42,625 nucleotides of DNA from Komagataeibacter xylinus NBRC 15237 (GTDB lineage: Bacteria; Pseudomonadota; Alphaproteobacteria; Acetobacterales; Acetobacteraceae). Shown here piece by piece: positions 2,116 through 3,839 of the stretch; position 1 is the first letter of the stretch; each line of letters starts with the position of its first letter. Position numbers and translations under genes: made by a program. The DNA is taken from contig NZ_BCTP01000026.1 of assembly GCF_001571345.1 (NCBI RefSeq), positions 1 through 42,625 on the forward strand. Reading direction: 5' to 3'. The notes under the pieces are model-generated. The model ran no database searches. It saw only the letters and a list, made by a program, of their open reading frames with translations, and was not told the origin of the DNA.

Positions 2116-3399
2116 GTGAACGGTTTTCCTGACGACCCGAAAAACATGCCCACCCGCCTGGGCCGGAGGGGGCTGTTTGCCGGCTCCCTGGCCTTTGGCG
2201 CGCTCGCCGGTGGCCGGTGGGCATCCGTGCCTGCAGCAGCCGCCGCCCTGCGGCGCACGGCGGTGCCCGGCACGGTGCCCCGGCTTGTGCCCATGCGCCC
2301 CCATGCCGACCAGATAGCCGATATCAAGGTCTGCCTACGCCCGTTCCGCGCCGCTGGCCCCCGGCTCGATGTCGAGCGGGTGGGCGGGAAGGTGGTCATC
2401 CATAATTACGGTCATGGCGGCAGCGGGTGGTCGCTTTCATGGGGGTCGGCCGAGATGGCAGTGGGCAAGGCGGCGGCCCTGTCGCCCCGGCGCGTGGCAG
2501 TAGTGGGGTGTGGCGTCATTGGCCTGACCACGGCGCTGACGGCGCAGCGCGCGGGGCTTGATGTCACGATCTATACGCGCGACCTGCTGCCCCACACCCG
2601 CTCGGTCCGCGCCAATGGAAGCTGGACACCGGATTCACGCGTGGCGCTGACCGCCCCCGCAGGCCCGCAATTTGCCGATACATGGGAGCGGATGGCCCGC
2701 TATTCATGGAAAAGCTATCGCGATTACCTCGGCTTGCCTGGCAACCCGATCGACTTCCGGGACAGTTATGTCCTGTCCGACACGCCTTTTGACGCGCCGG
2801 AACCCGAGCCGGAAAATCCGGACCACAAGGGCGACTACGCCACGACCGGCATGCCGCAGCAATCGAGCGAGTTTGCCAGCTATGGCGAACGGATACGCGA
2901 TATCATTCCAGCATCCGAACTGCTTTCCGCACAGGAAAATCCGTTTGCGGTGCCCTATGCCCGGCGCGAGCCGCTGATGATCTTCAATTTCGGGGCATAT
3001 GGTCATCTCCTGCTGTCCGAGTTTTATCAGGCGGGAGGGCGGATCGTCATCCGCGAGTTCCATACACCGGCCGACATGAAGACATTGCCCGAGCCGGTCA
3101 TCATCAATTGCCCCGGCTATGCGGCGCGTGACCTGTGGGGGGACCGCTCGCTCATTCCCGTGCGTGGCCAGACCGCGTGGCTGCCGCCGCAACCCGATGT
3201 GGCTTATGGGGTGCGCTACAAGGGGGCCTCGGCGCTTTCGAAAAGTGATGGCTTGATGATACAGGGGTTTGACATGTCGGGCTTGGGTGAAATGGACGGC
3301 GTGGGCAACAGTTTTGAACATGCCGACCGCAGCGAGGCGGAAAAGGCGATTGGCATATTTGAAAATCTTTTTGCCCGTTTTCCCGCGGGGCAGGGCTGA
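2116..3399 (+). CDS. Tat-exported FAD-dependent D-amino-acid oxidase/dehydrogenase-like protein with permuted domain order
   Basis: A 427-residue flavoprotein of the D-amino-acid oxidase (DAO) superfamily, expected to oxidise a D-amino acid or similar amine in the periplasm. Residues 15-45 form a twin-arginine signal (GRRGLFAGSLAFGALAGG, then an alanine-rich cleavage region). The block LRPFRAAGPRLDVE (residues 74-87) and HNYGHGGSGWSLSWGSA (96-112) follow; in ordinary DAO these lie at the C-terminus (substrate-carboxylate arginine and FAD-contact loop). Only then comes the FAD Rossmann motif VAVVGCGVIGLTTA (127-140), followed by the rest of the fold, with RGQTAWLPP and LMIQGF near the end. The chain thus looks circularly permuted. 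Start: GTG at 2116 has CAGAGG seven bases upstream; TTG at 2110 is too close to it, and ATG at 2146 would also keep the Tat signal. Its stop overlaps the start of the cytochrome gene (TGATG). Substrate unknown. Confidence 0.87.
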   Translation: MNGFPDDPKNMPTRLGRRGLFAGSLAFGALAGGRWASVPAAAAALRRTAVPGTVPRLVPMRPHADQIADIKVCLRPFRAAGPRLDVERVGGKVVIHNYGHGGSGWSLSWGSAEMAVGKAAALSPRRVAVVGCGVIGLTTALTAQRAGLDVTIYTRDLLPHTRSVRANGSWTPDSRVALTAPAGPQFADTWERMARYSWKSYRDYLGLPGNPIDFRDSYVLSDTPFDAPEPEPENPDHKGDYATTGMPQQSSEFASYGERIRDIIPASELLSAQENPFAVPYARREPLMIFNFGAYGHLLLSEFYQAGGRIVIREFHTPADMKTLPEPVIINCPGYAARDLWGDRSLIPVRGQTAWLPPQPDVAYGVRYKGASALSKSDGLMIQGFDMSGLGEMDGVGNSFEHADRSEAEKAIGIFENLFARFPAGQG

Positions 3400-3839
3400 T
3401 GCGCGGCCTGCAGGCAAGGCTGCGTGATGCCGCGCTGGGGGCGGGGCTGCTGGCGCTGAGCGTGCAGGTGGCCCATGCGGCACCGGCGCGGGCTGGTACG
3501 TCCTACTACACCGCCGCGCAGGCCGGGCGGGGGGCTACGGCCTACCAGCAGTTCTGCGCGGTGTGCCATGGGGCGGATCTGGGCGGAGCCTTTGACGTGC
3601 CGCCGCTTGTGGGGCGTTTTGCCGCCAACTGGGCAGGGGCGCCATTGGGCGCACTGTTTGACTACATGTCAAAAGCCATGCCGCTTTTTGCCCCCGGCAC
3701 GCTGACACCTGAGCAGAATGCGGATCTGCTGGCGTTCATGCTGCGTGAAAACGGCGCGCCCGCAGGCAGCCGTGATCTTACCCCCGAGGGGTTGAAAACC
3801 ATGATGTTTCCTAAAATGACGTTCGCCACCGTGAAGTAA
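3399..3839 (+). CDS. Exported c-type cytochrome, monohaem
   Basis: A 146-residue class I c-type cytochrome, presumably the electron acceptor of the flavoprotein encoded just upstream. A Sec signal peptide (LGAGLLALSVQVAHA) is followed by a single haem-attachment motif CAVCH (Cys53, Cys56, His57). The block LFDYMSKAMPLFAPG supplies a likely axial methionine (Met94), and TPEQNADLLAFMLRENG matches the C-terminal helix of small periplasmic cytochromes that serve dehydrogenases in acetic acid bacteria. The ATG overlaps the upstream stop codon (TGATG at 3397-3401), which indicates translational coupling. No separate promoter is seen. The physical pairing of a Tat flavoenzyme and a cytochrome c suggests transfer of electrons from the oxidised substrate to the respiratory chain; the sequence shows the pairing, the electron route is inference. 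Confidence 0.9.
   Translation: MRGLQARLRDAALGAGLLALSVQVAHAAPARAGTSYYTAAQAGRGATAYQQFCAVCHGADLGGAFDVPPLVGRFAANWAGAPLGALFDYMSKAMPLFAPGTLTPEQNADLLAFMLRENGAPAGSRDLTPEGLKTMMFPKMTFATVK

Follow-up and report, generated by a model that had tools for sequence, protein, structure and literature searches.

In D-amino-acid oxidase (DAAO) and D-aspartate oxidase, the canonical order of the DAO family is followed, with the FAD-binding Rossmann strand first and the HNYGHGG motif last. DadA, an FAD dehydrogenase of D-amino acids, belongs to the DAO superfamily, and FAD dehydrogenases of acetic acid bacteria, such as gluconate dehydrogenase, have a cytochrome c subunit. Engineered permutants of other flavoproteins exist; in searches of open-access literature we found no description of a natural permutant of the DAAO fold. 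The protein described here departs from the canonical DAO order, and its sequence strongly supports a natural circular permutation of the DAAO fold.

The DNA analysed (the window) is the 42,625 nt contig NZ_BCTP01000026.1 of Komagataeibacter xylinus NBRC 15237 (assembly GCF_001571345.1). The open frame of the flavoprotein begins with a GTG codon at 2116, although a TTG codon at 2110 could also serve. As these codons are kept in three of the four Komagataeibacter loci compared (L001-L003), which lack the internal ATG, GTG 2116 (or TTG 2110) is the likely start. Within the 427-residue frame the motifs run in the order twin-arginine leader, LRPFRAAGPRLDVE, HNYGHGG, GCGVIG and RGQ. The positions given for these landmarks by an earlier sequence-only reading (L74-E87, H96-A112, V127-A140, RGQ at 350-352 and LMIQGF at 380-385) were all right. 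The coordinates of the features are collected in Table 1. The K. xylinus genome has a single copy of the permuted gene. Among four nearby open frames of the window only one, a glycosyltransferase, gave a Pfam match. Residues R17-R18 are present in all 12 rows of alignment A1 and, together with the hydrophobic stretch that was read by eye, suggest that the leader is a Tat signal.

Table 1 Features of the permuted flavoprotein gene and its cytochrome c neighbour in the window
Feature	Coordinates	Strand	Basis
Circularly permuted DAAO-like flavoprotein gene (putative), 427 aa	2116..3399	+	Open frame and profile matches
Leader carrying GRRGLFAG (residues 16-23, twin-arginine motif) and a hydrophobic stretch	2116..2262	+	Sequence, by eye
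Displaced substrate-arginine strand, residues 70-87, IKVCLRPFRAAGPRLDVE	2323..2376	+	Alignment to solved chains, residue comparison
Displaced HNYGHGG FAD-binding loop and next helix, residues 96-121 (canonical C-terminus)	2401..2478	+	Alignments
Rossmann strand and GxGxxG, residues 126-140, RVAVVGCGVIGLTTA (canonical N-terminus)	2491..2535	+	Sequence, Pfam, profile alignment
VNCTG...RGQ (canonical middle), residues 328-352, VIINCPGYAARDLWGDRSLIPVRGQ	3097..3171	+	Sequence, alignments
Place of the canonical YxxPR...LGGT stretch, residues 371-386, ASALSKSDGLMIQGFD	3226..3273	+	Residue comparison; tyrosine = S372
Mono-haem cytochrome c (CAVCH) with hydrophobic leader	3399..3839	+	PF13442, E 1e-11

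Membership of the DAO family is indicated by the Pfam DAO model (PF01266), which matched the protein in two stretches with 77.9 bits against a curated cut-off of 27.9 (E 1.4e-21 for the whole protein); in the better stretch residues 126-423 correspond to positions 1-298 of the 353 in the profile. The GxGxxG FAD motif, VNCTG...RGQ and HNYGHGG were all found. R75 falls on R283 of human DAAO, the arginine of the substrate carboxylate, a pairing that follows from where the aligned stretch begins (query 74 = chain 282). At the place of human Y228, the substrate tyrosine of DAAO, the protein has S372.

The sequence-only reading had proposed that a D-amino-acid-oxidase-like fold was circularly permuted, and alignments in swapped order, which became a single collinear alignment upon rotation, strongly support that proposal. 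In phmmer comparisons with the solved chain 7ct4, query residues 118-360 aligned with chain residues 17-246, and query residues 6-117 aligned with chain residues 256-370. The same swapped order was seen residue by residue with 6rkf, 8hy5 and 1dao. The yeast chain 1c0i gave a single stretch only, both by phmmer and in the profile comparison with alignment A3. This alignment consists of 39 rows of our choosing; hhalign was used to set it against six bacterial proteins of canonical order. The unrotated A3 profile aligned in two parts, columns 104-383 with canonical columns 21-275 (score 282, E 2.5e-39) and columns 48-101 with canonical columns 282-335 (score 142, E 3.8e-19). Upon rotation of A3 in steps of eight columns the score reached a maximum of 409 (E 1.4e-57) in one piece when the cut was made at window-protein residue 120, where the GHGG helix has ended and the Rossmann strand has yet to begin. 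Doubling of the profile gave the same outcome. In the control, three canonical rows compared with three others in 40-column steps, the unrotated profile was the best (score 515). When the window protein on its own was rotated against a six-row canonical HMM, its best stretch scored 36-50 bits at the rotations listed, and only the HNYGHGG end of the profile contributed to this score. Against solved structures A3 retrieved DAAO and D-aspartate oxidase chains, mostly as two stretches (best E 1.6e-44, with 7ct4); for this chain profile columns 102-380 aligned with chain residues 20-303 and columns 48-105 with residues 320-377. Likewise, the C-terminal block of a canonical protein (L007) was 69% identical over 48 residues to the N-terminal block of a permuted protein.

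The junction between the old ends could also be examined from motif spacings. HNYGHGG and GxGxxG stand 33-41 residues apart in the 70 permuted open frames, with a median of 35. In six canonical open frames the chain ends 26-31 residues past the start of HNYGHGG, and the canonical lead before GxGxxG is short (6 residues in L007). As the permuted spacing approximates the canonical tail plus the short Rossmann lead, the old ends appear to have been fused with essentially no linker. The new ends of the permuted chain lie in the loop ahead of the LRPxR strand.

Two AlphaFold models were built from alignments of only seven and nine rows and had mean pLDDT values of 39.4 and 46.1. In the better of these (pLDDT 46.1, pTM 0.52) the ten-residue blocks having a mean pLDDT of at least 69 comprised window-protein residues 85-94, 115-154 and 295-334. 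These correspond to part of the displaced strand pair, to the end of its helix plus the Rossmann strand-helix-strand, and to the NCPG region, respectively; confidence was lower, below a pLDDT of 69, in the HNYGHGG loop. A helix was placed at residues 109-121 in this low-confidence model (pLDDT 46). A Foldseek search with the low-confidence model placed DAAO and D-aspartate oxidase chains at the top, eight of them at E <= 0.001, but with TM values of 0.24-0.27 and an rmsd of about 13, too loose a match to serve as evidence for the permutation.

How wide the family is had been left to a profile search with the permuted order, and this search found the gene in 11 alphaproteobacterial families (f1, f5, f13, f15, f51, f63, f66, f87, f134, f146 and f171) and beyond the class, in one family (f225, locus L089). 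At the order level 48 of 299 genomes matched the 12-row profile at E <= 1e-20, and at E <= 1e-15 the class-level and phylum-level draws gave 15 of 385 and 20 of 398 matching genomes, the K. xylinus genome being included in all three counts. The distribution is patchy within the genus: among the genomes listed, nine of the 17 of the same genus carry the gene and eight do not. Plasmid records having the permuted gene came from Rhizobium, Bradyrhizobium, Kozakia, Niveispirillum and the actinomycete Nonomuraea, the Kozakia and Niveispirillum frames being identical to those of L014 and L077. Three further loci came from viral contigs and carried between them two distinct permuted open frames. In one of these loci (L109:913-4011, IMG/VR) the permuted gene is leaderless and adjoins a phage terminase large-subunit gene (Terminase_6N/6C), and another IMG/VR contig (L110) has the same permuted open frame.

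Among the loci collected, 76 distinct open frames contained both motifs, 70 in permuted and six in canonical order, a ratio that is no census or measure of abundance because most loci were chosen for their resemblance to permuted proteins. None of the 76 carried a second GHGG motif and the window protein has no second HNYGHGG, so the duplicate C-terminal motif that would have spoken against permutation was absent throughout. The motif filter missed L107, L116, L123 and L089. The last of these, from the genome outside the Alphaproteobacteria (G938), has an open frame of 345 codons that runs through RPFR, HNYGHG, GCGAIG and RGQ in the permuted order and lacks a leader, since a stop lies just ahead of it. 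The canonical-order L116 of genome G818 was excluded as, by eye, it resembles a different DAO branch, and L123 was left out as well. The records examined carry no annotation beyond FAD-dependent oxidoreductase, so that databases conceal the rearrangement.

The ATG of the cytochrome c gene overlaps the flavoprotein stop codon by one base. A cytochrome c homologue is encoded directly downstream of 32 of the 70 permuted open frames, and these are found in one clade of acetic acid bacteria, in which the cytochrome c gene directly follows the permuted gene in 32 of 32 open frames. This clade had a support of 100 with 27 rows in a first tree, in which it contained no row that lacked the partner, and 100/100 with 15 rows in a second. 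The remaining 38 permuted open frames showed no cytochrome homologue to either side in the 1.4 kb, or the shorter available sequence, that was searched, a search that would miss a distant cytochrome; nine of the 38 had just 252-1,328 bases downstream. A loose lipobox pattern matched 24 of these 38. Outside the acetic-acid clade, there was no constant neighbour in the gene neighbourhoods examined. In Niveispirillum the gene that follows the permuted one (L131:7213-7914) encodes DsbD_2, a transmembrane domain of cytochrome c biogenesis.

On the Kozakia plasmid and in genome G042, the gene pair lies near the same cassette of LysR, beta-lactamase-fold (serine) hydrolase and DadA-like genes (82, 75 and 64% identity). 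The cassette was found in one of ten acetic-acid stretches searched besides Kozakia and in none of 11 further loci, and its DadA-like protein scored 356.9 against a cut-off of 383. Beside it are a penicillin-acylase domain in G042 and S9 and CocE/NonD hydrolases in Kozakia. The stretch of Kozakia baliensis plasmid pKB14400_3 (L140:4305-17749) encodes LysR, serine hydrolases, an FAD oxidoreductase related to the DadA-like protein, an S9 hydrolase, the permuted DAAO, cytochrome c, a CocE/NonD hydrolase and a TonB receptor, and is possibly a D-amino acid/peptide cluster. TonB receptor genes lie within about 3 kb of the pair in Kozakia, L005, L136 and L137; the L136 receptor belongs to the siderophore type, which gives no pointer to amino acids. 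On two rhizobial plasmids (L104:2420-6747 and L124:2524-6750) an unexported permuted DAAO is encoded between an FAD-binding oxidoreductase and a ThDP-dependent enzyme; the flavoprotein neighbour in L104 is of the berberine-bridge type by Pfam, and the ThDP enzyme could take the 2-oxo acid made by a DAAO-type enzyme.

The order of events was approached with two trees of re-ordered sequences. The first had 72 rows, with five near-copies excluded and L107 added by hand; the second had 54 rows after removal of 16 near-copies and of two long branches, L081 and L107. Permuted and canonical rows were split by one branch having a support of 99 (SH-aLRT) in the 72-row tree and 100/99 in the 54-row tree, and thus the trees fit a single origin of the permutation. 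When the tree was rooted on the canonical proteins, the permuted ones first divided (100/99) into the exported proteins and a group made up of the leaderless L096, L103, L104, L109 and L124 together with L097, which has an RR leader; the root is set by six long canonical branches only, and the first tree was flagged for long branches that meet. Leaderless proteins made up five of the six rows of the deepest permuted branch in the second tree and five of seven in the first, in which the long branch L081 joined this group. By eye, leaderless permuted members include those of Rhizobium, Bradyrhizobium and Nonomuraea plus L096 and L109. On the second tree the presence of the signal requires at least two changes, which fits a leaderless permutant that gained export later. 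As the deepest permuted branch is mostly unexported, permutation probably preceded export. The very divergent permutant L081:784-1965 (minus strand), from a 1.9-Mb alphaproteobacterial genome (G505), forms the longest branch of the first tree and has a leader that by eye is Sec-like rather than Tat.

The arginine aligned with R283 and the FAD-loop residues H96, Y98 and H100 are invariant in all 39 rows, R75 being that arginine in the window protein. The tyrosine aligned with Y228 is present in all 13 early rows and in two of the 26 derived rows, the window protein being among those that lost it. GG(T/S) is likewise gone from all 26 derived rows, in which the motif ends in Q instead, whereas the early branches retain both the tyrosine and GG(T/S). 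Hence, as judged by aligned residues, the FAD motifs and the putative carboxylate anchor are retained and the rest of the predicted pocket is changed. Given the loss of the Y228 equivalent and GG(T/S) in the derived rows, the enzyme might act on something other than an amino acid.

Taking these data together, we think it likely that the protein is a permuted, periplasmic FAD dehydrogenase that passes electrons to its own cytochrome c and descends from one cytosolic origin that preceded export. By sequence, the old C-terminal strand, the HNYGHGG loop and the helix now stand ahead of the FAD Rossmann strand. From the RR leader, the FAD motifs, residue conservation and gene pairing we infer that a folded, FAD-loaded protein would be exported by Tat, that a small carboxylate-bearing substrate of the D-amino-acid kind would be held by R75 and oxidized, and that the electrons would go to the c-type cytochrome encoded downstream. 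The protein would then act as a periplasmic respiratory dehydrogenase rather than as an oxidase, although a cytochrome partner next door is compatible with use of O2 as well. The permutation would have been a single event, probably in a cytosolic bacterial DAAO, with export added afterwards.

Two readings would deny the permutation itself. A frameshift, misassembly or gene fusion could mimic it, a notion for which we found nothing beyond the odd order; the open frames that run through all motifs in 11 alphaproteobacterial families, one family outside the class and one actinomycete, together with the single collinear alignment obtained upon rotation, argue that it is almost certainly wrong, and the conservation of the permuted order refutes it. 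Scarcely more credible is a domain of separate descent at the N-terminus that acquired its RPxR and HNYGHGG motifs by convergence. With so weak a structure model the packing of the N-terminal block cannot be read, which leaves room for such a domain, but the block aligns with the canonical C-terminal block over 53 columns (E 3.8e-19), and if it were a separate domain the FAD-closing loop would otherwise be missing, there being no second motif.

The remaining alternatives accept the permutation and concern what it is for. The derived exported clade might oxidize another carboxylate (a 2-hydroxy acid, an N-substituted amino acid or a peptide end), with electrons again going to cytochrome c. All 26 derived rows have lost GG(T/S), and 24 of them the Y228 equivalent, while the arginine is retained; this pattern, plus the lack of constant D-amino acid gene neighbours in the loci examined, makes the proposal a real contender that we nonetheless hold to be the less probable account, given the DadA-like, serine-hydrolase and penicillin-acylase neighbours in G042, the related cassette in Kozakia and the early branches that kept both the tyrosine and GG(T/S). 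The permutation might instead have been selected because it provided a signal-peptide site that aids folded Tat export, and the sequence-only reading had offered it as possibly such an adaptation. A loose RR pattern does precede the motif block in 65 of the 70 permuted open frames, a pattern that also matches L124, which is counted as unexported. This proposal did not find support and seems unlikely to us, since leaderless permutants dominate the deepest branch and the two-change history fits permutation followed by export.

For the lineage as a whole, we lean slightly towards a flavoenzyme history in which a cytosolic DAAO fold was permuted once, its descendants later gained Tat export and a lipoprotein anchor, and those of acetic acid bacteria became respiratory dehydrogenases with a cytochrome c of their own. 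If a lineage of single permutation is correct, it would be the first natural permutant known in the DAAO flavoprotein fold. The order of permutation, export, electron acceptor and pocket changes would be testable, because unexported, exported and canonical relatives can be compared. A DAAO fold having new ends, and perhaps a cytochrome in place of O2, should be of interest to biocatalysis.

The unpermuted relatives are the canonical bacterial DAAO-like proteins of Daviesbacteria (L007), Streptomyces (L105, L119 and L120) and Nocardia (L122), which have the Rossmann motif first and HNYGHGG last and are leaderless by eye; across the Rossmann part, L007 shares 28-39% identity with permuted proteins from five genomes. 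As to DadA, two loci have a DadA-like gene close to the permuted one, and DadA models match the window protein at the Rossmann motif only (29.3 bits against a cut-off of 383). With dehydrogenases of the gluconate dehydrogenase type the expected logic would be alike, a periplasmic flavoprotein plus a cytochrome c; the window flavoprotein is of the DAAO type. With DAAO and D-aspartate oxidase (PF01266; 7ct4, 6rkf, 2du8 and 1c0i) the window protein shares the FAD motif, VNCTG...RGQ, the LRPxR arginine and HNYGHGG; it differs from them in its permuted order, putative export leader and cytochrome c partner, and the derived permuted clade differs further in the loss of Y228 and LGGT.
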